Assembly: GCA_947489665.1 (NCBI GenBank)
Contig: CANLEH010000001.1
Coordinates: forward strand, 124,001-188,000
From: an uncultured Roseicyclus sp.
Lineage (GTDB): Bacteria; Pseudomonadota; Alphaproteobacteria; Rhodobacterales; Rhodobacteraceae
Length of the DNA: 64,000 nt
Reading direction: 5' to 3'
Shown here piece by piece: positions 1 to 13,017 of this stretch (within the stretch, counting starts at the first letter, position 1; each line of letters begins with the position of its first letter). The position numbers and the translations under genes were made by a program. The notes beneath the pieces are model-generated. The model saw only the letters and a program-made list of their open reading frames with translations, was not told the DNA's origin and did no database searches.

Positions 1-610
1 GAAAGTCGCCAAGCCCGAATGCGGCAGACAAACTGGTATGCACGCTCTTCTCAATGGGATTAAGACCAAGGCATTCATGAAAGGTGGCAACCGCATCTGC
101 GCCCGGCATGTAGCTTTCATCGGCAAGGATCAGGGCGTGGGCCAGAACGCGCTGCCGGCCCCCGCCAATGGGGCGAAGCCGTTGGGCGGTGCCAACGATT
201 TTTCGCCCGTCGACCGATAGATTCCAGGCACCGTCGCAAAAGCTGCCCGGGGTGTCGCCGGTTTTCAGTCGGGAACCATGAGGGCCAAGCCCATCGGTGA
301 TGATCTGCGTCAGCAGCCGATAGCCCGCTTCGATCGTAAAACCATTCGGCGCGTCAAACGCGAGAGCAATGTTTACGCTCCCAGGCCCTTGCGGCACGGC
401 GCCGCCGCCCGTGGGACGCAGATGAACAGGGTATCCAAGCCCCTTCAAGGCCAGCGCCGCCGCGTCGAAGCCCGCCTTCTTCTCAAAGCGTCTTGGGCAG
501 ACAACGGCACGGGATGCCGCTGACCAAAGCCCTACTTGCTGCCCGCCTGACACAAACAGCCCATGCTCGAACGCCAGACCTTCGGCTGCGGTTTCTACTT
601 TTGTGATCAT
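1..610 (-). CDS. Lipoate-protein ligase A-like protein (partial, C-terminus beyond left edge)
   Basis: An open minus-strand frame runs from ATG at 610 to the left edge with no stop, giving about 203 residues. It contains RPTGGGAV followed by PGSVNIAL and later a stretch with SFCDGAWNLSVDGRKIVGTAQR-like spacing (SFCDG, then KIVGTAQR). This is the pattern of the LplA/BPL fold that binds lipoyl-AMP and transfers lipoate to E2 or GcvH proteins. The family call is firm; whether it is a true ligase or an octanoyl-/amidotransferase relative cannot be told because the C-terminus is missing. Its promoter must lie in 611-840. No neighbour in the window explains its role. Confidence 0.8.
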   Translation of the reverse strand, partial: MITKVETAAEGLAFEHGLFVSGGQQVGLWSAASRAVVCPRRFEKKAGFDAAALALKGLGYPVHLRPTGGGAVPQGPGSVNIALAFDAPNGFTIEAGYRLLTQIITDGLGPHGSRLKTGDTPGSFCDGAWNLSVDGRKIVGTAQRLRPIGGGRQRVLAHALILADESYMPGADAVATFHECLGLNPIEKSVHTSLSAAFGLGDF

Positions 611-644
611 GGCTTGGGGCTCACGGGCAATTCGATTTTCGTAC

Positions 645-674
645 GGCTCAGGCTCGGGCTCGGGCTCGGGCTCA
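645..674. repeat. Hexanucleotide tandem repeat GGCTCR x5
   Basis: Five consecutive six-base units read GGCTCA, GGCTCG, GGCTCG, GGCTCG, GGCTCA. They lie just upstream of the lplA-like start (on its 5' side). A slippage-prone array here could alter promoter spacing, but that is inference. Confidence 0.8.
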
Positions 675-841
675 GTAAGCCACCATCTTCTGTGTCGTCC
701 AGCATGCAATGATCCAATGAAGCGGATCGCGACTGAAGGAAAGCCGAGGAGGCACTTTTATCCGCAACCGAATTCTGAATTCGATCGGGGCTTCTGTATT
801 GGCCTAAAGGAAGAAAATACATCCTCCCCAAGGCGTTATAG

Positions 842-994
842 CCGATTACCAAGGGCGAGCGCTTCAATTTCGTGCTGTGGCTTTTCGGCGACCACGGGCA
901 AATTCCGCCATCGGGTGGGCCAGTGAAGGCCGCAAGTGCCAAGGAACGCTGGTCGATACCCGACGCAAAAAACGACGGCTTCGCGCCGTTCTAA
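842..994 (+). pseudogene. Remnant of a 2OG-Fe(II) oxygenase C-terminus
   Basis: Directly after an in-frame TAG at 839-841, fifty codons read PITKGERFNFVLWLFGDHG and on to a TAA at 992-994, ending DGFAPF. The block PI(T)xGxRFxxVLW(L/C)FG is typical of the last strand of prolyl-4-hydroxylase-like 2OG-Fe(II) dioxygenases, just after the catalytic His and Arg. No start codon, iron ligands or upstream domain remain in frame, so this is read as a decayed gene tail. The residue pattern is seen directly; the family assignment is recognition from one motif. Confidence 0.55.
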
Positions 995-1001
995 CACGCA
1001 T

Positions 1002-1026
1002 GGGCCTCCGTCTAGGGAGGCCCTTT
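1002..1026 (+). terminator. Intrinsic terminator-like hairpin
   Basis: An 8-bp perfect stem, GGGCCTCC (1002-1009) with GGAGGCCC (1016-1023), encloses a 6-base loop and is followed by TTT. It sits 8 bases after the stop of the oxygenase remnant, so it is probably that gene's old terminator. Confidence 0.65.
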
Positions 1027-1071
1027 CACATCGTTCGGGTGATCGAATTTGAACCCATAGCAGCACGTTAA

Positions 1072-1086
1072 GCCTAACTTTTAGGC
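1072..1086. promoter_or_regulatory. 15-bp dyad upstream of nasT
   Basis: GCCTAACTTTTAGGC is a 6-bp inverted repeat around CTT, 78 bases before the nasT start. A near-copy, GCCCAACTTTTGGGC, lies at 2919-2933 ahead of the nrt leader. The one stem difference is matched on both arms, so the dyad is kept. It is not an obvious NtrC or sigma-54 site. Shared operator is inference. Confidence 0.55.
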
Positions 1087-1163
1087 AGGGTTCGCCCCGG
1101 CGCAGGGCGGGTGCTGGAAACCAATTGAAGTTCCCGCCCGTTGCGCCAATCCACGGCGTCATC

Positions 1164-1748
1164 ATGCGCACTGCTCTCACAATTGTTGTCGTCGAAGAAG
1201 ATCGTGATCGCGCGATTGCAATTGTCGATGCCCTCAAAGATGAGGGCGAGAATGATGTGCATGTCATTGGAAATATGACAGGCTTGGCGCGCCGGATCGC
1301 CGCCTATAGCCCCGACATCGTCCTGATAGACATTGATCACCCGACCCGCGACGTCATCGAGGAATTGACCCTCGCGTCGGGCCCGCTGGAACGACCGGTT
1401 GCCATGTTCGTGTCAGGTGCGGCAGGGGGCCTTGCAAGAGCTGCGGTTGAGGCGGGCGTAACAGCTTACGTCGTGGATGGGTTGCACCCTGATCGCCTCA
1501 AACCGGTCATTGACGCGGCCATCGCTCGGTTTCAGATCATGCGCCAGATGAGGACCGAACTGGATGAAACCCGTCGCGCCCTCGAAGAACGCAAGGTGAT
1601 CGATCGTGCCAAGGGCCTTGTGATGAAGGCAAGGCAAGTCGACGAGGAAGAGGCCTATGCCATCCTTCGCAGAGCAGCCATGGATCAGGGAATGCGGGTG
1701 GCCGAGGTTGCGCAGTCATTGGTCACAACGGCAGGACTGCTCCGATGA
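1164..1748 (+). CDS. nasT: NasT-type ANTAR response regulator (nitrate antiterminator)
   Basis: NasT binds leader RNA and prevents termination of nitrate assimilation transcripts when released by the sensor NasS. The protein (194 aa from ATG 1164) has a receiver-like domain (about 1-125) with EED near the start and LIDIDHP at the phosphoacceptor strand, a linker helix, then the ANTAR domain with ERKVIDRAKGLVMKARQ and MDQGMRVAEVAQSLV. The receiver's usual lysine region reads AYVVDG, as in NasT proteins, so phosphorylation is probably not the trigger. The upstream in-frame TTG at 1125 is a poor start; no strong Shine-Dalgarno is seen at 1164. The stop overlaps nasS by four bases. Its likely RNA target is at 2981-3052. 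Confidence 0.92.
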   Translation: MRTALTIVVVEEDRDRAIAIVDALKDEGENDVHVIGNMTGLARRIAAYSPDIVLIDIDHPTRDVIEELTLASGPLERPVAMFVSGAAGGLARAAVEAGVTAYVVDGLHPDRLKPVIDAAIARFQIMRQMRTELDETRRALEERKVIDRAKGLVMKARQVDEEEAYAILRRAAMDQGMRVAEVAQSLVTTAGLLR

Positions 1749-2917
1749 AGTCGGTCTCGGTCTCCGTTGCGTATATGCCGCTGGTTGACGCCGCTCCGTT
1801 AATCGTTGCTCAGGAAATGGGGTTTGCAGAGGCCGAGGGCCTCGCCCTCGATTTAATCCCGGCCCCGTCATGGTCTTCGGTACGCGATATGCTGGCCTTC
1901 GGGCGCGTTGATGTGGCGCATCTGTTGTCGGTGGTTCCGGTCGCTATGGCTTTGGGCTTGGGTGGGGTCAGTACGGCCCTCTCCGCCGTCTCGGTTCTGT
2001 CGGTCAACGGAAACGCCATCGGGGTTAGCCGAGCGTTAGAGGCCAACTTACGAGACATCGGGTATCTCTTCGATTTCGAGGACGCTCATGGCGCCGGGGC
2101 CGCCCTCGCAACGGTAGCCCCGCAGGGGCTGACCATTGGCGTGCCGTTTCCTTTCTCGATGCACATCGAATTGATCGAGATTTGGCGCGAAGCGACCCCG
2201 TTGCGTGGCATACCGTTGAAGATCCGAACTGTTCCGCCGCCCATGATGGCGCAGGCCTTGGCCGAAGGCGAGATCGATGCATTCTGCGTTGGGGAGCCAT
2301 GGGGATCAATGGCAGTGGAAGGCCATGTCGGCGCGCTCCTTTTGCCGGGCCGCGCGATTTGGAATTTCGCCCCCGAGAAGGTCTTGGCCACACGCGCCGA
2401 ATGGGCGGAAACCGAACCGCATCTGTTGGGCCGTCTGATCCGCTCCGTCTGGCGCGCAAGCCGATGGCTGGCCGATCCGGCAAGCCGAACCGCGGCGGCA
2501 GAGCTCTTGGGTCGTCCGCAATGGCTGGATGTCCCTTCCGAAATCGTCGACCGGGCCTTGACGGGAAAGCTGGCGATTTCACCGGGCGGAGAGCTTCGGG
2601 ACGTGCCCGCGTTCCTCGAGTTCCACAACAGCGCCGCGACCTTCCCTTGGCGAAGCCAGGGCAAGTGGATCGCACATCGCCTGGCGCTACGATCCGGATT
2701 GGATGTGCCTGCTGCAATGATCCGCGCAGCGGATGTCTTCCGAAGTGATCAATACCGTTTTGCGCTGGATGGAACTGGCGCAGACATGCCAGGCGCCTCT
2801 GAAAAAGTAGAAGGCTCTCTCTCTAGCCCCATGGCGGTGGGGTCGACTCGGGGGGAGATTGTTTTGGGGCCGGATGCTTTTTTTGACGGACGCATTTTTG
2901 ATCCGTTCGAGGTGTGA
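1745..2917 (+). CDS. nasS: NasS nitrate/nitrite sensor, cytoplasmic NrtA-like protein
   Basis: NasS belongs to the CmpA/NrtA solute-binding family but lacks a signal peptide. The 390-aa protein begins directly with [22 protein letters not shown], i.e. the first strand of the binding fold, with FCVGEPWG and PEKVLATR motifs shared with NrtA. In Paracoccus and Azotobacter, NasS holds NasT inactive until nitrate or nitrite binds. The ATGA overlap with nasT implies translational coupling and a 1:1 complex. It is followed at once by the 15-bp dyad at 2919. Confidence 0.9.
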
Positions 2918-2918
2918 T

Positions 2919-2933
2919 GCCCAACTTTTGGGC
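2919..2933. promoter_or_regulatory. 15-bp dyad ahead of the nrt leader
   Basis: GCCCAACTTTTGGGC starts two bases after the nasS stop and 48 bases before the first ANTAR hairpin. It is the twin of the dyad at 1072-1086 (13 of 15 bases identical, the two changes complementary). Its place suits an operator at the promoter of the nrt leader transcript; it is unlikely to be only a nasS terminator because there is no T-run. Confidence 0.55.
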
Positions 2934-2980
2934 AAACTCGCCTGAAAGTTGCGGCAGTGCAGCATTTACAACTGACCAAA

Positions 2981-3052
2981 ACGCAAACGGGCTTGCGTGC
3001 ACACACAGCACTCGCAATCCTAGGCGTGTCGAAGGCAATGGCGTCTTCACAC
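2981..3052 (+). ncRNA. Two-hairpin ANTAR-binding leader RNA of the nrt operon
   Basis: Hairpin 1: ACGCAA (2981-2986), loop ACGGGC (2987-2992), TTGCGT (2993-2998). Hairpin 2: GTGTCGAAGGC, loop AATGGC (3037-3042), GTCTTCACAC, with one bulged C and one G-U pair. Both loops are six bases with A at position 1 and G at position 4, the signature established for ANTAR-protein RNA targets. The pair lies between the nasS stop and the terminator at 3086, 150 bases ahead of nrtA. The expected ligand is NasT encoded just upstream. Structure was drawn by eye, not folded by program. Confidence 0.85.
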
Positions 3053-3085
3053 ACCCTTTCTTCCCACCGACCGGGATGTCTGAGC

Positions 3086-3140
3086 AAAGCCGCTCGATGC
3101 CGCTGCGATCTGCGCAGCGTGTGTCAGCGGCTTTTGTCAT
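3086..3140 (+). terminator. Leader terminator controlled by NasT
   Basis: AAAGCCGCT (3086-3094) pairs with AGCGGCTTT (3126-3134), with a second stem CGCTGCG/CGCAGCG (3101-3107, 3113-3119) nested inside. A T-rich tail TTTTGTCATTTTT follows. It lies 34 bases after ANTAR hairpin 2 and 62 bases before nrtA, as expected for a regulated attenuator. Confidence 0.85.
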
Positions 3141-3201
3141 TTTTAGCCCTTCGCGCCTCCTCCCAAAAAACGTGCGTCGGGCATCAGGTAGGAGACCATC
3201 C

Positions 3202-4560
3202 ATGAAACGCCTTTTTGCAGCGCTCGCTACGACCACCGCTCTTAGCGCGCCGTTGGCGGCGCAGGAGCTGGAGATTGACGAGCTGACCTTCGGCTTCATC
3301 AAACTGACCGACATGGCGCCGCTCGCTGTGGCCTACGAACTGGGCTACTTCGAGGACGAGGGTCTTTTCGTCACCCTTGAAGCGCAGGCCAATTGGCGCG
3401 TCCTTCTCGACGGTGTCATCGATGGCACGCTCGACGGCGCGCACATGCTGGCCGGTCAGCCCATCGCGGCCACTATCGGCTACGGAACACAGGCCAACAT
3501 CATCACGCCATTCTCGATGGATTTGAACGGCAACGGCATCACCGTATCCAACGAAGTTTGGGATCTGATGCGCCCGCATATCCCGTCGATGGATGATGGA
3601 CGCCCGCAGCACCCGATCAGCGCCGAAGCGCTGGTTCCGGTGGTCGAGCAATACCGCGATGAGGGCACGCGGTTTGACATGGGCATGGTTTTCCCGGTCT
3701 CCACGCACAACTACGAAATCCGCTTCTGGCTGGCTGCTGGCGGGCTGAACCCGGGCTTCTACAGCCCTGAAGACATTACAGGAACCATCGATGCGGACGT
3801 CTTCCTGTCGGTGACACCTCCGCCGCAGATGCCCGCCACTTTGGAGGCCGGCACGATCTTCGGTTACGCCGTGGGTGAGCCGTGGAACCAGCAGGCCGTG
3901 CAGCGCGGCATCGGCGTTCCGGTTATCACCGATTACCAGCTTTGGCCCAACAACCCCGAGAAAGTCTTCGGCATCACCGAAGAATTCGCGGAAGAGAACC
4001 CAAACACTACACGCGCCATCGTCCGCGCCCTGATCCGGGCCGGTATGTGGCTTGACGAGAACGACAACGCCAACCGCGAAGAAGCGGTGGAGATGCTGTC
4101 CTGGCCCGAATATGTGGGTGCGGATGCCGAGGTGATCGCGGCGTCGATGACCGGCACGTTTGAGTTCGAGCCCGGCGATGTGCGCGAGATCCCCGACTTC
4201 AACGTGTTCTTCCGCTATTACGCGACCTATCCGTATTACTCGGACGCCGTGTGGTACCTGACGCAGATGCGTCGCTGGGGCCAGATTGCCGAGCCGCAGA
4301 CGGACGAGTGGTATCATGAGGTCGCGGCACAGGTGTATCGCCCGGACATCTATCTGGAGGCCGCGCGGTCGCTGGTGGATGACGGTCTGGCGCTTGAAGC
4401 CGACTTCCCCTGGGACACCGATGGCTTCCGGGAGCCGGTATCCGAGATGATTGACGGCATCACCTACGACGGTCGCTTCCCCAACGCCTATATCGACGCC
4501 TTCCCGATTGGCCTGACCGGCGATGAGGTGGTGGTCGACGGTGCCGTGACAGGCGGCTGA
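3202..4560 (+). CDS. nrtA: Nitrate ABC transporter, periplasmic substrate-binding protein
   Basis: Periplasmic nitrate-binding component of the NrtABCD importer. From ATG 3202 (Shine-Dalgarno TAGGAGA) the 452-aa product has a Sec signal ending ALSAPLAAQ, then the CmpA/NrtA fold with [18 protein letters not shown] near residue 30, [12 protein letters not shown] near 110 and [12 protein letters not shown] near 220. The open frame extends upstream through the leader RNA, but the signal peptide and Shine-Dalgarno fix the start. No lipobox cysteine is seen. It is the first gene of an eight-gene operon and is preceded by the ANTAR leader, so its expression should depend on NasT. Confidence 0.93.
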
Positions 4561-4572
4561 TCTCAGCCAATC

Positions 4573-4589
4573 GGTGGGTTTTGCCCACC
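4573..4589. repeat. Short dispersed-type hairpin GGTGGG/CCCACC
   Basis: GGTGGG, loop TTTTG, CCCACC followed by CTACG lies 12 bases after the nrtA stop. GTGGGTTTTGCCCACCCTACG-like elements are common between genes in Rhodobacterales (from memory). It may stabilise the nrtA transcript end. No T-run follows. Confidence 0.5.
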
Positions 4590-4686
4590 CTACGCTGCGG
4601 GCGCGAACACACAGCGCCCGTGGCAATGCCCAAAAAACAGGCGGCGAAATCGGCGTAATGAAGCTGTAGTGAATCTGTAGTTTTTT

Positions 4687-4708
4687 TGTAACTACAATTG
4701 TAGTTACA
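4687..4708. promoter_or_regulatory. 22-bp perfect palindrome upstream of nrtB
   Basis: TGTAACTACAA is followed immediately by its exact inverse TTGTAGTTACA. Two extra TGTAGT hexamers lie just upstream (near 4663 and 4675). The palindrome is 60 bases ahead of nrtB in the longest intergenic gap inside the operon, which suggests an operator for an internal promoter. The regulator is unknown. Confidence 0.6.
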
Positions 4709-4768
4709 CGCCCCTTCGCCGCCTTTTCCAGCTGCCCACGCTGCGATGCAGAAAAGGACGCGAGAGAC

Positions 4769-5851
4769 ATGACGACGGTAGACCCGAATTTCGACAAATC
4801 CTCTGATCCGGGCCGCGAGGCGCGCCGCGAGCGGACCTTCACCCGGATCAACAAGGCCGACACCTGGTTCAAGGTTCTGGGGCTGGCCTGGATCACGCCG
4901 ATGCTGCGGATTGCGGCGGGCGATAACCCCAAAGCGCAAGGCGGCGAGATCTGGCGTTTGCTGGGGGTGCCGTTGCTGGCCATTGCCGGGTTCCTTTTGC
5001 TGTGGGCGACTTTGGCGCCGCAGGTTCAAACCTCGCTCGGCGCGATCCCCGGCCCGGCGCAAGTCTGGGAACAGGTGGGCAACCTGAACGAAGACGCGCA
5101 GCGCACCCGTGAACGGGCCGCCGATTTCTATGAGCGGCAGGAGCAGCGGAACGCCGATAGGATCGCCGCCGGAGAAGAGCCGCGCCCGATCCGCGATTTC
5201 ACCGGCGCGCCGACCTACTATCAGCAGATTTGGACCTCCATTAAGACAGTCTTCTTCGGCTTCCTGATCGCCACCATCGTCGCCGTCCCGCTGGGCATTG
5301 CGGCCGGTCTTTCGGCCACAGCAAATGCCGCGCTGAACCCGATCATCCAGGTCTTCAAACCGGTCAGCCCGCTGGCCTGGCTTCCGATCGTGTCCATCGT
5401 GGTATCCGCTTTAGCCGCCGATGATGGGTTGTTCGAAAAGTCGTTCATCGTGTCGGCCATTACCGTGACGCTCTGTTCGCTTTGGCCCACGTTGATCAAC
5501 ACGGCGCTGGGTGTGGCAAGCATCGACAAGGATCTGGTGAACGTGTCGAAGGTTCTGAAGATGGGCACCTGGACGAAGATTCAGAAGCTTGTTCTGCCCT
5601 CGGCCTTGCCGCTGATCTTCACGGGTCTTCGACTGAGCCTCGGTGTCGGCTGGATGGTTCTGATCGCGGCGGAGATGCTGGCGCAGAACCCGGGCCTTGG
5701 CAAATTTGTCTGGGACGAGTTCCAGAATGGGTCGAGCCAGTCGCTGGCGAAGATCATGGTGGCGGTTCTGACCATCGGGATCATCGGCTTCCTGCTGGAT
5801 CGCCTGATGTACACGATCCAGTCGCTTTTCACCTTCACCAACAACCGCTGA
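4769..5851 (+). CDS. nrtB: Nitrate ABC transporter permease
   Basis: Inner-membrane channel of the nitrate importer. The 360-aa protein has a cytoplasmic N-terminus, a first membrane span at about residues 68-90, a charged loop rich in Arg/Glu (about 110-145), and the BPD_transp_1 core with several spans from about 155 to 345. The EAA-like loop reads SKVLKMGTWTKIQKLVLPSALP (about 255-276), the site that contacts the ATPase. It is longer at the N-terminus than ordinary SsuC/TauC permeases, as known for NrtB. The next gene starts 10 bases later. Confidence 0.92.
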   Translation: MTTVDPNFDKSSDPGREARRERTFTRINKADTWFKVLGLAWITPMLRIAAGDNPKAQGGEIWRLLGVPLLAIAGFLLLWATLAPQVQTSLGAIPGPAQVWEQVGNLNEDAQRTRERAADFYERQEQRNADRIAAGEEPRPIRDFTGAPTYYQQIWTSIKTVFFGFLIATIVAVPLGIAAGLSATANAALNPIIQVFKPVSPLAWLPIVSIVVSALAADDGLFEKSFIVSAITVTLCSLWPTLINTALGVASIDKDLVNVSKVLKMGTWTKIQKLVLPSALPLIFTGLRLSLGVGWMVLIAAEMLAQNPGLGKFVWDEFQNGSSQSLAKIMVAVLTIGIIGFLLDRLMYTIQSLFTFTNNR

Positions 5852-5861
5852 GGTCGGGCAG

Positions 5862-7532
5862 ATGGCATTTCTTGAACTGAAGAATGTGTCCAAGAGCTTT
5901 GGCGAAACGCCGGTTCTGAAGGACATCAACCTTGAGGTCGCGGAAGGAGAGTTTCTGGTGCTGCTGGGCTTCTCGGGCACCGGCAAGACCACGCTGATCA
6001 ACCTGATGGCCGGCCTTGAGATGTCCACAAAGGGGGAGGTCCTGTTCAAGGGCGCCCCCGTGACGGAGCCGGGGCCGGAACGCGGCGTGATCTTTCAGAA
6101 CTACTCGCTGATGCCGTGGCTGACGGTGAACGGCAATGTGAGCCTGGCGGTTGATACGATGTTCCCGGATCTCAGCAAGGCTGAGAAGGCCGCGAAGGTT
6201 TCGAAATATGTTGAGATGGTCGGTTTGGGGCACGCGGCTGCGCGGCGTCCCGCAGAGCTCTCGGGGGGCATGCGTCAGCGCGTTAACGTCGCGCGTGCAC
6301 TGGCCATGGACCCCGAGATGCTTCTTCTGGATGAGCCGTTGAGCGCCTTGGATGCGTTGACGCGGGGCAATCTGGCCGAAGAGATCGAGCGGATCTGGGA
6401 GGCAGACAAAAAGACCTGTGTGCTGATCACCAATGATGTGGACGAGGCGATCTTGCTGGCGGATCGGATCATTCCGCTAAACCCCGACGGGACGCTGGCG
6501 GACCCGATTGAGGTGGGGATTGCGCGGCCGCGGGATCGATCTGCGATGAACAACGATGCGGAGTTCAAGCGGCTGCGTGCCGAGGTGACGACCTATCTGA
6601 TGGATGTTGGGATCGAGGCGAAGGTCGAGGGCTCTCGAGTGTTGCCCGAGGTGACGCCGATCCATGGTGTGCCGGTGGCGGTGAAGAACGCCGCGCAATC
6701 GGCGTTGGAGGACCGGTATCTGGAGTTCTCCAAGGTGCTCAAGGTGTACCCGACGCCAAAAGGTCCGTTGACGGTGGTGGAGGATTTCGATCTGAAGCTG
6801 CGGAAGGGCGAGTTCATCTCGCTGATCGGGCATTCGGGGTGCGGGAAATCGACGGCCCTGACGATGGTTGCTGGTTTGAACGAGATCAGCAAAGGCGCGA
6901 TCAAGCTGGATGGCGTCGGCGTGGAAGGCGCGGATCCGGAGCGCGCGGTGGTGTTCCAGTCGCCGTCGCTGTTCCCGTGGCTGACGGCACGGGAGAACTG
7001 CGCGATTGGTGTGGACAAGGTCTATCCGAAGGCGTCGCGGGCCGAGCGCCAGGATGTGGTGGAATACTACCTTGAGCGTGTGGGTCTGGCCGATGCGATG
7101 GACAAGGCGGCGGCCGATCTGTCGAACGGGATGAAGCAGCGGGTGGGGATCGCGCGGGCATTTGCGTTGTCGCCGAAGCTGCTGCTGCTGGATGAGCCGT
7201 TCGGGATGTTGGATAGCCTCACGCGGTGGGAACTCCAAGAAGTGCTGATGGAGGTGTGGAGCCGCACGAAGGTGACGGCGATCTGCGTGACGCATGACGT
7301 GGACGAGGCGATCTTGCTGGCCGACCGGGTGGTGATGATGACCAACGGGCCGCAGGCGACCATCGGCAAGATCACCGAGGTGGACCTGCCGAGGCCGCGC
7401 ACGCGAAAGGCGCTGTTGGAGCATCCGGATTACTACACCTACCGGCAGGATGTGCTCGATTTTCTTGAAGAATATGAGCACGGCGCGAAGCCGAAACCCA
7501 AAACGCCTGCCCCGGCGATTGCGGCGGAGTAG
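5862..7532 (+). CDS. nrtCD: Nitrate ABC transporter ATPase with two fused nucleotide-binding domains
   Basis: One 556-aa chain carries two complete ABC ATPase modules. Domain 1: Walker A GFSGTGKTT (about 38), LSGGMRQRV (about 133), Walker B LLLLDEP (about 154). Domain 2: GHSGCGKST (about 322), LSNGMKQRV (about 420), LLLLDEP (about 443). The switch histidine is Asn191 in domain 1 (LITND) but His478 in domain 2 (CVTHD), so the first site may be a degenerate ATPase site. Cyanobacteria split this role between NrtC and NrtD; here the fusion needs no second gene. The C-terminal tail is Pro/Lys/Ala-rich. Confidence 0.92.
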   Translation: MAFLELKNVSKSFGETPVLKDINLEVAEGEFLVLLGFSGTGKTTLINLMAGLEMSTKGEVLFKGAPVTEPGPERGVIFQNYSLMPWLTVNGNVSLAVDTMFPDLSKAEKAAKVSKYVEMVGLGHAAARRPAELSGGMRQRVNVARALAMDPEMLLLDEPLSALDALTRGNLAEEIERIWEADKKTCVLITNDVDEAILLADRIIPLNPDGTLADPIEVGIARPRDRSAMNNDAEFKRLRAEVTTYLMDVGIEAKVEGSRVLPEVTPIHGVPVAVKNAAQSALEDRYLEFSKVLKVYPTPKGPLTVVEDFDLKLRKGEFISLIGHSGCGKSTALTMVAGLNEISKGAIKLDGVGVEGADPERAVVFQSPSLFPWLTARENCAIGVDKVYPKASRAERQDVVEYYLERVGLADAMDKAAADLSNGMKQRVGIARAFALSPKLLLLDEPFGMLDSLTRWELQEVLMEVWSRTKVTAICVTHDVDEAILLADRVVMMTNGPQATIGKITEVDLPRPRTRKALLEHPDYYTYRQDVLDFLEEYEHGAKPKPKTPAPAIAAE

Positions 7533-7537
7533 CTGAC

Positions 7538-9973
7538 ATGAGCAAACAGAAACTCGTTGTGATTGGCGCCGGGATGGCCTCGGGTCGGGTGCTGGAGCAT
7601 CTGACGGACGCCGCGCCGGACGCCTTTGACATCACCCTGTTCAACGCGGAGCCGCGCGGGAACTATAACCGCATCATGCTGTCGCCGGTTCTGGCGGGGG
7701 ATCAAACCTACGCCGACATCGTCACCCATGACGAGGCTTGGTACGCCGAGCGTGGCATTGCCACGCGGTTTGGCGAAAAGGTTCTGGAGATTGACCGCGA
7801 GGCAAAGGTTGTCGTGGGCGAAAACGGCCACGTTCCGTACGACAAGCTGATCTTTGGCACGGGATCGAACCCGTTCATGATCCCGCTGCCGGGCCATGAT
7901 CTGGAGGGTGTCATAGCCTACCGGGACCTGGAAGACACCGAGCGGATGATGGGCCTGACTGCCGGTCAGAAATGCGTTGTGATTGGTGGCGGGTTGTTGG
8001 GCCTTGAAGCTGCCGCAGGCATGGCCGCGCGGGGTGTCGCTGTAACGGTCGTGCACATCATGGGCCACCTGATGGAGCGGCAGTTGGACGAGGCGGCGGG
8101 CTATCTGCTGCGCAAGTCGCTGGAAGACAAAGGCATCACGATCAAGCTGCAGGCGAACTCGAAGGAGATTGTCGGAGAAAACGGCAAGGTGCGCGCGTTG
8201 ATGCTGGACGATGGCACTGAACTGCCCTGTGACCTGTTGGTCATGGCAGTGGGCATTCGGCCCAATGTCGCGTTGGCACAAGCCGCCGGACTGGCGGTGG
8301 GCAAGGGCATCCACGTGGATGACCAGCTCTGCACGTCTGACGAAGAAATCTTCGCGGTTGGCGAATGTGTGGAGCATCTGGGTGCGATCTTTGGCCTTGT
8401 CGCTCCGCTCTACGACCAAGCCAAGGTGCTCGCCCAAACCCTGTTGGGGGAAGAGGCTGCCTTTGTGCAAAAATCACTTTCGACCAAGCTGAAGGTGACG
8501 GGCTGCGACCTGTTCAGCGCGGGTGATTTTGCAGATGGCGAAGGGCGGGAAGATGTCGTTTTTCGCGACCCGTCGCGGGGCGTCTACAAGCGACTTGTTA
8601 TAGAAGATAACAAGCTGGTCGGCGCTGTCATGTATGGTGACACAGCCGATGGCAGCTGGTTCTTTGGCCTGATCCGTGACGGCACGGACATCGAGGAGAT
8701 GCGGGAGACGCTGATCTTCGGGCCTGCCTATCAGGGGGGCGACACTGCGGACCCTCTCTCAGCCGTTGCAGCCTTGCCGCTTGATGCGGAGATCTGTGGC
8801 TGTAACGGCGTTTGCAAAGGCACCATCGTTGAGGCGATCGAAGGCGGCGCGGGGGATCTGGGTTCGGTGCGGGCAAGCACCAAGGCCAGCGCATCCTGCG
8901 GGACCTGCACGGGGCTGGTCGAACAGCTGTTGCAGGTGACACTGGGCGATGCGTTCGAGATGCCCGCCGCGCAGCCGGTGTGTGGATGCACCGACCACAC
9001 CCACGAAGACGTGCGGCGACTGATCAAGACGATGCCGTTGAAATCGCAGGAGGCCGTCTGGCAGGAATTGGGGTGGAATACCCGGAACGGCTGCCATGTC
9101 TGCCGCCCGGCGATCAACTTCTACCTGCTGGCTGATTGGCCACTGGACTATCAGGACGACCCACAATCGCGGTTCATCAACGAACGCAAGCACGCGAATA
9201 TCCAGAAGGACGGCACGTTTTCCGTCGTGCCGCGCATGTGGGGCGGGATCACCAACCCCCGCGAATTGCGCGCGATTGCAGATGCGGCGGACAAATACAA
9301 CGTGCCGACCGTGAAGGTGACGGGCGGGCAGCGGATCGACCTGCTGGGTGTGAAGGGGGAAGACCTGCCTGCGATCTGGTCCGATTTGAACAAGGCGGGG
9401 CTGGTCTCGGGCCATGCCTATTCGAAGGGTTTGCGCACGGTGAAGACCTGCGTGGGCACGGATCATTGCCGGTTTGGGACACAGGACTCCACAGGTTTGG
9501 GTATCAAGCTGGAGCAGGCGCTCTGGGGGTCGTGGACACCGCACAAGGTAAAGCTGGGTGTCTCGGGCTGCCCGCGCAATTGCGCGGAGGCGACCTGCAA
9601 GGATGTGGGCATCATCTGTGTCGATAGCGGCTATCAGGTGGGCGTTGCGGGTGCCGCTGGCATGGACGTGAAAGAAACCGAGCGTCTGATCGATGTGGCG
9701 ACCGAGGCCGAGGCGATCGACGTTACGGTCGCGTTTGTGCAGCTTTACCGTGAAAACGCGAAGTATCTGGATCGGCCCTACAAGTGGGTCGCGAAGGTCG
9801 GTCTCGATTGGGTGAAGGAGCGGATCGAGGATCTGGATGAGCGCGCGCGACTGATCGAGGCGTTCGAGCTTTCGCAAAGCATTTATCGCAAGGACCCTTG
9901 GGCCGAGCATGCCGCGGAGAAAGCGGAGCGCTATCAGCCGCTGGCCGACCTGACGCTGGAGGCGGCGGAATGA
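7538..9973 (+). CDS. nirB: Assimilatory nitrite reductase [NAD(P)H], large subunit
   Basis: Reduces nitrite to ammonium with six electrons from NAD(P)H in the cytoplasm. The 811-aa protein has an FAD/NAD-binding half (VVIGAGMASGRVLE at the start; VVIGGGLLGLEAA near 150), a first BFD-type [2Fe-2S] motif CGCNGVC...CGTC (about 420-460), a second CGC...CHVC (about 485-525), a ferredoxin-like half-domain, then the [4Fe-4S]-siroheme ligands TCVGTDHC (about 637) and CPRNCAEATC (about 678). Length matches NirB/NasB. It is 5 bases from nrtCD, in one operon with nirD, and depends on siroheme from cysG downstream. Confidence 0.95.
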   Translation: MSKQKLVVIGAGMASGRVLEHLTDAAPDAFDITLFNAEPRGNYNRIMLSPVLAGDQTYADIVTHDEAWYAERGIATRFGEKVLEIDREAKVVVGENGHVPYDKLIFGTGSNPFMIPLPGHDLEGVIAYRDLEDTERMMGLTAGQKCVVIGGGLLGLEAAAGMAARGVAVTVVHIMGHLMERQLDEAAGYLLRKSLEDKGITIKLQANSKEIVGENGKVRALMLDDGTELPCDLLVMAVGIRPNVALAQAAGLAVGKGIHVDDQLCTSDEEIFAVGECVEHLGAIFGLVAPLYDQAKVLAQTLLGEEAAFVQKSLSTKLKVTGCDLFSAGDFADGEGREDVVFRDPSRGVYKRLVIEDNKLVGAVMYGDTADGSWFFGLIRDGTDIEEMRETLIFGPAYQGGDTADPLSAVAALPLDAEICGCNGVCKGTIVEAIEGGAGDLGSVRASTKASASCGTCTGLVEQLLQVTLGDAFEMPAAQPVCGCTDHTHEDVRRLIKTMPLKSQEAVWQELGWNTRNGCHVCRPAINFYLLADWPLDYQDDPQSRFINERKHANIQKDGTFSVVPRMWGGITNPRELRAIADAADKYNVPTVKVTGGQRIDLLGVKGEDLPAIWSDLNKAGLVSGHAYSKGLRTVKTCVGTDHCRFGTQDSTGLGIKLEQALWGSWTPHKVKLGVSGCPRNCAEATCKDVGIICVDSGYQVGVAGAAGMDVKETERLIDVATEAEAIDVTVAFVQLYRENAKYLDRPYKWVAKVGLDWVKERIEDLDERARLIEAFELSQSIYRKDPWAEHAAEKAERYQPLADLTLEAAE

Positions 9974-10006
9974 GCCGGTTTTTCGCCGCCTTCGGCGCCG
10001 ACCAAT

Positions 10007-10026
10007 GCGAGGGGCCAGCCCCTCGC
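10007..10026. repeat. Intercistronic hairpin between nirB and nirD
   Basis: A perfect 8-bp stem GCGAGGGG/CCCCTCGC closes a CCAG loop and is followed by CCCCGAGGTATTTTTG. GGGGCCAGCCCC...GAGGTATTTTTGAAA-like blocks recur between genes in Rhodobacterales (from memory). The T-run could cause partial termination or processing inside the operon. Confidence 0.55.
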
Positions 10027-10066
10027 GCTCCCCGAGGTATTTTTGAAACAAGGAAGGGGCGGGCCG

Positions 10067-10396
10067 ATGGCGTGGGTTGATATCGGGGCGCTGGACGATG
10101 TGCCCGTGCGCGGCGCGCGCAAGCTGAAGACCGCACTGGGCTGCGTCGCGGTGTTTCGGACCGACGATGCGGAGGTGTTTGCCGCATCGAACACCTGCCC
10201 CCACAAGGGCGGGCCACTGGTCGAGGGGATCGTGCATGGGCAGTCGGTGACCTGCCCGTTGCACAACTGGGTCTTTGATCTGAACACCGGCCAAGCGAAG
10301 GGCGAGGATGGGCAGATTTCGACCTATCCGGTGCGGGTCGAGGCGGGACGCATCCTTATTGACGGCACGGCGTTGAGCGCGCGGAGTGCGGCGTGA
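10067..10396 (+). CDS. nirD: Nitrite reductase small subunit, Rieske type
   Basis: Small partner of NirB. The 109-aa protein is a Rieske domain with both cluster motifs intact, CPHKGG (about 44) and CPLHNW (about 64), so it should bind a [2Fe-2S] cluster; E. coli NirD has lost these residues. Start ATG 10067 is chosen because AAGGAAGGGG lies just upstream; an in-frame ATG at 10043 would fall inside the preceding T-rich repeat. The stop overlaps the nasA start by one base (TGATG). Confidence 0.92.
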   Translation: MAWVDIGALDDVPVRGARKLKTALGCVAVFRTDDAEVFAASNTCPHKGGPLVEGIVHGQSVTCPLHNWVFDLNTGQAKGEDGQISTYPVRVEAGRILIDGTALSARSAA

Positions 10397-13017
10397 TGGA
10401 CGGCAGCGCGCCAGTAGGTGAAGTGCGCTCGACCTGTCCCTATTGCGGCGTTGGTTGCGGGGTGCTGTTGCGCCCGGACGGGGCCGGGGGGCTGGCGGTG
10501 CGGGGCGACCCGGAGCATCCGGCGAACCATGGGCGGCTGTGTTCGAAGGGCACGGCTTTGGGCGAGACCGTGGGGCTGGGGCACCGCTTGCACGCGCCGG
10601 TGGTGGATGGGGCGGAGGCCAGCTGGGATGAGGCCCTGCAACATGTGGCGGATCGATTTTCGCAGGTTGTGGCCGAGCATGGCCCGGATGCGACGGCGTT
10701 TTATGTGTCGGGGCAATTGCTGACCGAGGATTACTATGTCGCCAACAAGTTGATGAAGGGATTCATCGGCTCGGCCAATATCGATACGAATTCCAGGCTT
10801 TGCATGGCGTCCACGGTGGTAGGGCACAAGCGGGCATTTGGCACCGATACGGTGCCGGGGACCTATGAAGATCTGGATCAGGCGGAATTGGTGGTGCTCG
10901 TCGGCTCGAACCTGGCGTGGTGTCATCCGGTGCTGTTTCAGCGGGTGCGGGCCTCGGGCGCGAAGATCGTGGTGATTGATCCACGGCGGACGGCGTCATG
11001 CGATGGCGCCGCGCTGCATCTGGCGATAGAGCCGGGCGCGGATGTGGCCGTGTTCAACGGCCTGCTGCGCGCGATTGCTGAGGCTGGCGCGGTGGATGCG
11101 GGGTATGCGGCGCATGTCGAGGGTCTGGATGATGCCCTTGCGGCTGCGCGCGCGGACACTGCGAAGACGGGCCTGAGTCCGGAGGAAGAGCGCGTCTTTC
11201 ACGATCTGTGGATCGGGACGGAGAAGGTGGTCACGATCTTCAGCCAGGGGGTGAACCAGTCGACCAGCGGGTCCGACAAGGTCAACGCGATCCTCAACTG
11301 TCACCTTGCGACGGGCCGGATCGGGAAGCCGGGGATGGGGCCATTCAGCGTGACCGGGCAGCCCAATGCGATGGGGGGGCGCGAGGTTGGGGGGTTGGCC
11401 AATATGCTGGCCTGCCATCTGGATCTTGAGAACGCAGATCACCGTGCAGCGGTGCGGGGGTTCTGGAATGCGGGCCCTTTGCCGGAGGCGCCAGGCCTGA
11501 AGGCCGTCGACATGTTTCGGGCGGTGGGGGATGGACGCATCAAGGCGTTGTGGATCATCCACACCAACCCGGCCGTGTCGATGCCCGACGCGGATGCAGT
11601 AAGGGATGCAATCAAAGGGTGCGAGTTCGTGGTTGTCAGCGACGTCACCGGTGCCACGGATACCGCGCGTCTGGCCGATGTTCTGCTGCCTGCCACCGCT
11701 TGGGCCGAGAAGGAGGGGACCGTCACGAACTCCGACCGGACGATCAGCCGCCAGCGCGCTGTTCTGCCTGCACCGGGCCATGCGCGGCCCGACTGGGATA
11801 TTCTGGCGGAGGTTGGGCGCCGGATGGGGTTCGGCACCGCCTTCGACTATGAGACCCCGGCCGAGATTTTCCGCGAACATGCCGCCCTGTCGGGCATCGC
11901 GGGAGGCCGTTTCGGGCGGGATTTCGATATATCGGGCCTCGCCGATCTGAGCGATGCCGCCTATGACGCCCTGTCTCCGACACGTTGGCCCGTCACCAGC
12001 AGCGGCAAGGGTGATCGCTTCTTTGCGGATGGTCGCTTTTTCCATCCGAACGGCAAGGCGCGGCTTCTGCCTGTCACCACGCGCCCACCCGCAGCGATGC
12101 CGACACCGGAGTTCCCCTATCGCCTCAACACCGGGCGGGTGCGGGACCAATGGCACACGATGACGCGCACGGGCCTGAGCCCGCGGCTGTCCGGCCATCT
12201 GGCGGAGCCCTATCTTGATCTGCATCCCCAGGACGCGGCAGCCCTGCAGGTGACACATGCCGACCTGGTCGAAGTCACCAGCCCCTATGGCCGTGCCATC
12301 TTGCGGGCGCGGCTGAGCGATGCCGTTCAACCCGGCCAGCCTTTTGCGCCGATGCACTGGACGGCGGAAACGGCCCCAACGGGCCGGGTCGACGCGCTGG
12401 TCGCGCCTGTAACAGACCCCGTCTCGGGCCAGCCGGAAAGCAAGGCCTCCCTCGTGTCGATCAAACGGATGGAGGCGGCTTGGTATGGCTTTGCGGTCGC
12501 AACGGAAAAGATGAACCCCGATTGTGATTATTGGGCTGTCGCGTCGACCAGCGCCGGGTTTCGCATGGAACTGGCGGGCTACAAGGCCCCGGAAGATTGG
12601 GACGCCACCGCGCGCGCTTTGTTTGGAATATCCGATGCTGCTGCAATCTCGGTCAGTGATCCTGCGCGCGGCACGGCCCGCATCGCGTTTGAACAGGATG
12701 GGCATATCAAAGCTGCCCTGTTCGTCGGGTCGACGCCCATTGCGATCATGCGTGACTATATCGCCGGCCTGCCCGGAACTGCCGCCCCCGCCAACCTGAC
12801 AGGCCGCCCCCCCGCTGATGTCGTCGATGCGGGTGCAATCCTGTGTGCCTGCTTTGGTGTCGGGATCAACACCATCGTGACGGCCATCGAAGCAGATGGC
12901 CTGATGAGTGTGGAGGCCATTGGCGAAGCGCTGCAGGCGGGGACCAATTGCGGTTCCTGCCGGCCCGAATTGGCGAGCCTGATCATGCGCAGCCAGCACA
13001 AGGAGGCCGCGGAATGA
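10396..13017 (+). CDS. nasA: Assimilatory nitrate reductase catalytic subunit
   Basis: Molybdenum bis-MGD enzyme reducing nitrate to nitrite in the cytoplasm. The 873-aa protein has an N-terminal [4Fe-4S] site (CPYCGVGCG, later CSKG), the Mo-ligand cysteine in NSRLCMAS (about 136), MGD-binding blocks (QPNAMGGREVGG near 320; NTGRVRDQWHTMTRTG near 580), and a C-terminal BFD-like [2Fe-2S] domain CACFGVG...CGSC (about 818-860). The extra C-terminal cluster is typical of Klebsiella/Paracoccus NasA. No Tat signal, as expected for an assimilatory enzyme. ATG 10396 is preferred; GTG at 10393 is possible. Confidence 0.95.
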   Translation: MDGSAPVGEVRSTCPYCGVGCGVLLRPDGAGGLAVRGDPEHPANHGRLCSKGTALGETVGLGHRLHAPVVDGAEASWDEALQHVADRFSQVVAEHGPDATAFYVSGQLLTEDYYVANKLMKGFIGSANIDTNSRLCMASTVVGHKRAFGTDTVPGTYEDLDQAELVVLVGSNLAWCHPVLFQRVRASGAKIVVIDPRRTASCDGAALHLAIEPGADVAVFNGLLRAIAEAGAVDAGYAAHVEGLDDALAAARADTAKTGLSPEEERVFHDLWIGTEKVVTIFSQGVNQSTSGSDKVNAILNCHLATGRIGKPGMGPFSVTGQPNAMGGREVGGLANMLACHLDLENADHRAAVRGFWNAGPLPEAPGLKAVDMFRAVGDGRIKALWIIHTNPAVSMPDADAVRDAIKGCEFVVVSDVTGATDTARLADVLLPATAWAEKEGTVTNSDRTISRQRAVLPAPGHARPDWDILAEVGRRMGFGTAFDYETPAEIFREHAALSGIAGGRFGRDFDISGLADLSDAAYDALSPTRWPVTSSGKGDRFFADGRFFHPNGKARLLPVTTRPPAAMPTPEFPYRLNTGRVRDQWHTMTRTGLSPRLSGHLAEPYLDLHPQDAAALQVTHADLVEVTSPYGRAILRARLSDAVQPGQPFAPMHWTAETAPTGRVDALVAPVTDPVSGQPESKASLVSIKRMEAAWYGFAVATEKMNPDCDYWAVASTSAGFRMELAGYKAPEDWDATARALFGISDAAAISVSDPARGTARIAFEQDGHIKAALFVGSTPIAIMRDYIAGLPGTAAPANLTGRPPADVVDAGAILCACFGVGINTIVTAIEADGLMSVEAIGEALQAGTNCGSCRPELASLIMRSQHKEAAE

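Follow-up and report, generated by a model that had tools for sequence, protein, structure and literature searches.

A probable three-hairpin, NasT-responsive antitermination leader upstream of nrtA in an uncultured Roseicyclus, with a putative PhaR box beside it

This work describes the region 2981-3140 of a 64,000-nucleotide stretch of DNA from an uncultured Roseicyclus sp. (the window) as what is very probably a NasS-NasT nitrate-responsive transcription antitermination leader, in which a hairpin competes with an intrinsic terminator and three hairpins (P0, Pm and P2, from 5' to 3') are present. We report the anatomy of this leader, its conservation and covariation, its loop letters and its spacing. 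The three-hairpin form found in the Rhodobacterales would, as we read the sequences, be a new variant of a known nitrate switch, and it corrects the map of that switch in this order. Additionally, a conserved PhaR-like palindrome was identified upstream of the leader.

All genes and RNA features given here lie on the forward strand. The gene coordinates and Pfam matches agree with the initial annotation of this DNA, which placed nasT-nasS immediately upstream of the leader and nrtA downstream. The nasT gene (1164-1748) encodes an ANTAR-domain antiterminator (Pfam ANTAR, 72.3 bits) with a degenerate receiver domain, whose Response_reg match (26.8 bits) is under the Pfam cut-off. Its product matches the solved ANTAR proteins 1s8n, 6wsh (EutV), 4akk (NasR) and 1qo0 (AmiR), and the genome gives no other ANTAR match. 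The nasS gene (1745-2917), encoding a nitrate/nitrite-binding sensor of the NMT1_2 family (Pfam), overlaps the nasT stop codon; both genes are adjacent to each other and next to assimilation genes, the arrangement that marks NasS-NasT systems. The leader lies inside the 284-base gap between nasS and nrtA. The latter (3202-4560; Pfam NMT1_2, 302.9 bits), named from context as a nitrate ABC transporter substrate-binding protein, is the first gene of the operon controlled by the leader and is followed by the nrtB permease (4769-5851; Pfam, with a TIGR01183 match below cut-off), an nrtCD-type ATPase with two ABC_tran domains (5862-7532; Pfam, with TIGR01184 above cut-off) and nirB, the nitrite reductase large subunit (7538-9973; TIGR02374 above cut-off). 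Among the matches listed, Roseicyclus sp. Amp-Y-6 has the nearest named NasS, with 73% identity. NasS is patchy inside the genus of the window itself, with no match in five of the seven other genus genomes listed.

A pool of related loci was collected by a NasS search of 292 genomes from the same order, 170 of which matched, and the 141 loci above 247 bits were kept. A nasT match is present upstream of nasS in all 141 and an nrtA match downstream in 134. For the alignments, 13 named loci were dropped by hand and near-identical ones were removed, which left 87 of 101; of these, 43 leaders were aligned as set A2 and 22 as a second set, A3. Both sets were picked with A at position 1 and G at position 4 of the loop (A1/G4) required in P0 and P2, which builds in the invariant letters there, and the letters of the middle loop played no part in the picking. 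Loop-letter counts that are free or nearly free of this selection come from a scan for hexaloops of any letters (94 of 116 loci) and from matches to R1, a model built from A2 (80 of 80). The R1 test set is made up of named loci, namely the 80 with the most similar NasS out of 579; 69 of them are not identical to a training row. For linker statistics, 108 loci were used (the 141 minus 19 without a P2 by rule, six of Paracoccus type and eight of the remaining 116 without P0); middle-loop counts use 94 of these and palindrome counts 107, as one gap was too short. The P2 position was set by hand in L057 and L059.

The intrinsic terminator (3084-3134, -33.5 kcal/mol) starts about 35 bases after P0 and precedes nrtA, as had been proposed. 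Its arms pair AAAGCCGCT (3086-3094) with AGCGGCTTT (3126-3134) and are followed by TGTCATTTTT; the T tract is interrupted. A strict terminator scan of positions 1-5000 did not list it, its shape being outside the rules of that scan. The 5' arm lies inside P2 (3081-3096, TGAGC-AAAGCC-GCTCG), where it takes up loop and 3' arm. P2, the predicted antiterminator with an A1/G4 loop, had been missed by the initial annotation, which recognized hairpins at 2981-2998 and 3031-3048 and suggested that the mechanism may differ from that of other leaders, as the second of these does not overlap the terminator. Since the conserved hairpin at 3081-3096 shares bases with the terminator 5' arm, as in the EutV/NasR model, the leader shows the classical competition and there is no need to invoke another mechanism.

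Both elements are conserved together. P2 and a base-sharing terminator were found automatically in 123 of the 141 loci, a count that includes seven in which Pm was mistaken for P2 (L057, L059, L076, L084, L090, L093, L101); they were missing in 18, including Paracoccus-type loci and L048, where the loop starts with G. The P2 stem is almost fixed in A2 (95.8% paired) and fully paired in A3 (100%). Across 116 loci its two arms change together, and it reads GAGC/GCTC in 99, AAGC/GCTT in eight, GGGC/GCTC in four and AGGC/GCCT in two, with GAGC/GCTT, GAAC/GTTC and CGGC/GCCG in one locus each. All 80 R1 matches carry A1 and G4 in the P2 loop. The terminator stem common to the P2 loop shows both-side changes in three of eight pairs in A2 and is 99.6% paired in A3, and the terminator covaries with the P2 loop: an A-U pair is replaced by G-C (columns 70/122) in 12 of the 43 A2 leaders.

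The upstream ANTAR hairpin P0 (3031-3048, GAAGGC-AATGGC-GTCTTC), with a stem extendable to 3023-3055, is the second hairpin of the initial annotation. Both-side changes occur in four of its six stem pairs in A2 (n = 43; 84 cells), with 93.8% of cells paired. The best any-letter hexaloop 40-60 bases before P2 has a stem of at least 4 bp in 94 of 116 loci, and its loop carries G4 in 90 and A1 in 85 of these 94; the other 22 loci have no hexaloop stem of at least 4 bp at this place, many of them showing a three-pair stem. Among the R1 matches, the P0 loop has G4 in 80/80 and A1 in 79/80. RNAalifold, run without a given structure, recovered P0 and the terminator in both A2 and A3; the covariation indicates that these two are more than chance. 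R1 itself, which matches the leader in every locus of its test set, gives one strong match in the genome (7e-19). The next match (E 0.15) was considered as another NasT target and set aside, as it overlaps long open frames. An Rfam search of positions 1-12000 up to E 10 returned no ANTAR leader, only two unrelated matches far below gathering scores.

Between P0 and P2 lies a third hairpin, Pm (3062-3076, TCCC-ACCGACC-GGGA), likewise missed by the first reading. The canonical ANTAR loop has six bases with A1/G4; the loop of Pm in the window has seven, with A1 and G4, and those of relatives six or seven. The P0-P2 linkers (20-49 bases) have a mean fold of -8.6 kcal/mol, compared with -4.6 kcal/mol in letter shuffles, and contain a stem of at least 4 bp in 101 of 108 loci, compared with 63 in shuffles. 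The loop is of six or seven bases in 94/108, once one pair had been opened in the four- and five-base cases, a step decided on after these loops had been inspected. Position 4 is G in 74 of these 94 loops, against a mean of 9.9 of about 54 such loops and at most 18 in 200 shuffles; A1 is found in 53/94, and A1 and G4 together in 43/94 (shuffle maximum 10). In the alignments, the loop has G4 in 42/43 (A2) and 22/22 (A3). The stem shows both-side changes in six of seven pairs in A3 (n = 22; 80.9% of cells paired) and is near-invariant in A2, which therefore says little about pairing. RNAalifold placed two Pm pairs in A2, in a shifted register, and returned none for A3, so the Pm stem rests on the counts and on linker folding. 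Chance as the origin of Pm is rejected by plain letter shuffles, for the stem and G4 counts alike.

Taken jointly, P0, Pm and P2 in A2 have 85 cells changed on both sides versus 28.7 in shuffles, and pairing falls from 93.5% to at most 50.1% when the partners are slid. The number of pairs with a both-side change shows no excess (5 versus 4.7 in shuffles, A2), and the A3 pair-type count for the antiterminator structure is unremarkable, being reached by 155 of 500 shuffles. When the growing transcript of the window was folded, P0, Pm and P2 formed in turn, P2 had been lost once the prefix reached 3130 and the terminator was complete by 3134; the best fold at the prefix ending at 3112 is without P0. 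An ANTAR protein encoded nearby and two A1/G4 hexaloop hairpins, the second overlapping the terminator 5' arm, are the hallmarks of ANTAR leaders, and all are found here. The proposal of a NasT-responsive ANTAR leader before nrtA hence stands, supported by gene context, covariation, loop letters and the sole ANTAR protein alongside one strong leader match.

The median distance between loop starts is 50 nt for P0-P2 (n = 108; 49 in the window), 27 nt (23-30) for P0-Pm (n = 74 with G4; 29 in the window) and 21 nt (10-90% range 20-27) for Pm-P2 (n = 74 with G4; 20 in the window). The linker in the window is 32 nt between P0 and P2 and 4 nt (3077-3080) between Pm and P2. P0 and P2 are thus outside the short-linker range of the eut leaders (5-12 nt), which is approached only if Pm is counted as the first hairpin, P1. 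In 40 more distant NasT loci, scanned without a shuffle control so that a few weak matches (e.g. L218) may be chance, 23 combine P2 and a terminator with an A1/G4 hexaloop further upstream, located 18-27 bases before P2 in 18 and only at 41-62 bases in five. The Pm-P2 spacing is therefore the ordinary spacing of a first loop, so that Pm stands as an ordinary first hairpin with P0 additional, or all three form a ladder. In L215, a NasT locus outside the order, a terminator is preceded by three canonical A1/G4 hexaloops in a row, with distances of 66 and 26 bases from the first and the second to the last.

Three published systems are compared here on the basis of the accessible portions of their sources. 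The Paracoccus denitrificans NasS-NasT/nasABGHC system (PMC3795266, PMC5424462) has the same regulators, the same location between nasS and the operon, and leader hairpins. NasT of this species is reported to bind leader RNA with nitrate present, and to be released by nitrate or nitrite (PMC3795266). The controlled operon is nasABGHC there, whereas it is nrtABD-nirB in the window, and the published leader has two hairpins, HI and HII, compared with three here; in mutants, HI was needed and an HII mutation left induction largely intact (PMC5424462). The leader of P. denitrificans HAMBI_2443 (L239, ~3783-3850) has three tandem hexaloop hairpins, the third identified by eye and of G1/G4 type; no terminator sharing the last hairpin was found in it. 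Tandem hexaloops were also observed in the Paracoccus-type nas leaders L086, L088, L090, L093-L096, L099-L101, L106, L134 and L137, where several have three by eye and in several the last overlaps a GCCACC/GGTGGC terminator.

The EutV antiterminator of Enterococcus faecalis (PMC3369931, PMC8934654) likewise uses A1/G4 hexaloops, the last hairpin overlapping the terminator, and its ANTAR domain has the same G4-contacting residues as NasT. The residues said to contact G4 include R142, K149, E160 and Y164 (PMC8934654). In an alignment read by hand (chain index equal to the paper number plus 2), NasT is identical to EutV at these four as well as at M172 and R177, with N173 replaced by D and R175 by G. 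EutV leaders have two hairpins with a 5-12 nt linker (PMC3369931), unlike the window with its 32 nt and a third hairpin in between. Lengthening the eut linker to 14 nt cut induction (PMC3369931), and 20 nt added between the loops abolished antitermination (PMC8934654). With 32 bases between them, P0 and P2 taken by themselves as the two loops would violate the EutV spacing rule. The Klebsiella oxytoca NasR-nasF leader (PMC3369936) is likewise a nitrate-responsive case of ANTAR antitermination with P1, P2 and terminator overlap, but NasR is sensor and regulator in one protein and two hairpins are described, whereas the window has NasS plus NasT, and three. In the accessible literature covered, no paper was recognized as describing three-hairpin ANTAR leaders.

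On the model of these systems, NasS would hold NasT when nitrate is absent, the terminator (3084-3134) would form and transcription would stop before nrtA. With nitrate, NasS would release NasT, which would bind the G4 loops of the nascent leader, ending on 3081-3096. Kept shut by NasT, P2 would occupy 3086-3094, leave the terminator 5' arm unavailable and so prevent termination. Pm would bridge an otherwise too long gap, either as a stepping stone or as the usual first loop, P0 then being an additional recruiting loop ahead of it. The release of NasT by nitrate and its RNA binding are carried over to this locus from literature on relatives, namely Paracoccus; we infer readthrough into nrtA here, and for Pm a role as a bridge or first loop.

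A more far-reaching reading, to which we give somewhat less than an even chance, is a relay: in Rhodobacterales and P. denitrificans, NasT would step or assemble along three G4 loops separated by about 20-29 nt, and the same promoter region would be linked to carbon storage by the PhaR box described below. In such a relay, Pm would bridge a span too long for an EutV-type two-loop switch, and this layout might correspond to the oligomeric form of NasT that has been reported from P. denitrificans. There is no agreement on the way in which two loops are engaged by an ANTAR dimer, as binding to both at once (PMC3369931, PMC3369936) and to one and then the next (PMC8934654) have each been put forward in the accessible parts of these papers, and spacing is among the main lines of evidence. 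With three loops at even spacing, more than 100 sequence variants and distant two-loop relatives, this natural family offers a ready test of the stepping model.

Alternatively, Pm could be a mere spacer or folding aid that shortens the long linker of a dual-hairpin P0 and P2 switch and is not touched by NasT. The variable loop size of six or seven bases and the loose A1 are in keeping with this, as is the stem being the most fixed part of Pm in A2. A spacer needs no G4, yet G4 is retained in most Pm loops across the loci and in nearly all of the aligned ones, and the Pm-P2 distance equals the upstream-loop distance in most other NasT leaders found; we consider a spacer rather unlikely.

Much less probable is an action of NasT at another level, e.g. 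translation or RNA stability, with the terminator marking where the nasTS transcript ends. It would agree with the position of the leader directly after nasS and with P. denitrificans, where, in the accessible text of PMC5424462, nasTS are cotranscribed and nasABGHC forms a separate transcriptional unit. Against it, the base-sharing P2 and terminator show joint covariation in many genera, and more than 60 nt separate the terminator from the nrtA start codon that follows.

The two hairpins of the initial annotation do exist in the sequence, with six-base loops carrying A1 and G4: hairpin 1 (2981-2998, ACGCAA-ACGGGC-TTGCGT) and hairpin 2, i.e. P0, have predicted fold energies of -5.6 and -5.5 kcal/mol, respectively. 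Their proposed pairing as the NasT target did not hold, as hairpin 1 lacks conservation and hairpin 2 is the upstream rather than the downstream member of the pair. An A1/G4 hexaloop scan of the gaps showed P2 and, less completely, P0 in most loci, but no hairpin 1 in L003 and L004, the two nearest relatives. A hexaloop hairpin of this type with at least 4 bp, at a distance from the conserved block that differs by no more than 3 bases, was found in 3 of 107 other loci (L012, L081, L112). Loss of loop A1/G4 in close relatives that keep nasT had been named as grounds for refutation, and compensatory stem changes as support: hairpin 1 is lost in such relatives, whereas hairpin 2 keeps its loop letters as counted above and shows many compensatory changes. 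Hairpin 1 also covers TTGCGT, the -35 box of a candidate promoter (-35 TTGCGT at 2992-2997, -10 AATCCT at 3015-3020, 17-nt spacer). The positional signal of this promoter is weak (in 77 relatives and relative to the P0 loop, T in 61% at -44, G in 52% at -43 and T in 56% at -17), and a strict sigma-70 scan of positions 1-5000 reported no site, the candidate at 2992-3020 included. Judging from the candidate promoter, transcription likely starts at about 3022-3031, between hairpins 1 and 2, and hairpin 1 is probably upstream of the transcript and not transcribed. Hairpin 1 was rejected as a functional element, being missing from the nearest relatives and near-absent elsewhere, and a NasT pair of 2981-2998 and 3031-3048 acting without terminator overlap is highly improbable in spite of its two A1/G4 loops, given this loss, the overlap with the -35 box and a conserved pair with the classical overlap further downstream.

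On the side of hairpin 1, upstream A1/G4 hexaloop hairpins as a class are modestly commoner in the 108 loci than in shuffles (13 versus 9.7 at ≥ 4 bp, 11 versus 3.6 at 5 bp and 7 versus 1.45 at 6 bp), and several of them lie, by eye, on a PhaR-like palindrome. In the window this palindrome, TGCGGCAGTGCAGCA (2950-2964, no strand assigned), is a DNA site outside the RNA switch and is conserved in relatives. The pattern TGCNGCNNNGCNGCA is present at no more than one mismatch in 81 of 107 relatives, compared with 0.3 in shuffles, 1/107 for the reversed pattern and 1/107 in nasS coding DNA. Its distance to the P0 loop falls into classes of 34-35 (nine loci), 62-71 (19), 75-80 (13), 84-92 (36) and beyond (four), with steps of about 10-12 and 31 that loosely fit helical turns. 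Across the whole window, the one-mismatch pattern is in no excess (12 versus 9.1 by chance); exact sites in the genome number 24, compared with 8 for the reversed control.

The palindrome differs by one mismatch from the PhaR consensus TGCRNYGCASMA of Bradyrhizobium (as given in the accessible text of PMC6201568). In the 107 relatives, TGCRNYGCASMA is found without mismatch in 28 and with one in 62 (90 within one; shuffles 0.07 and 2.1), as opposed to one and nine, respectively, in nasS coding DNA of 107 loci. The genome carries a PHB_acc-domain (PhaR) gene with two facing one-mismatch copies of the box within about 1.5 kb, and two more one-mismatch sites are located in the same 3.1 kb. NtrC was considered as the owner of the palindrome and rejected, as the Paracoccus NtrC consensus differs and PhaR fits better. 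Six other exact palindrome sites were also inspected, and their neighboring genes (8 proteins) show no nitrogen-gene pattern. In the accessible literature covered, no paper was recognized as describing PhaR at nas promoters. We propose, from the conserved box, that carbon-storage status may feed into the nitrate operon via the putative PhaR box, which would be a possible direct carbon-storage input at this operon.

Two further repeats were observed in the window: GGCTCG units in a short tandem array that lies ahead of nasT (~645-675) and a perfect 20-base palindrome, GTAACTACAATTGTAGTTAC, between nrtA and nrtB (4688-4707), located after a T run.
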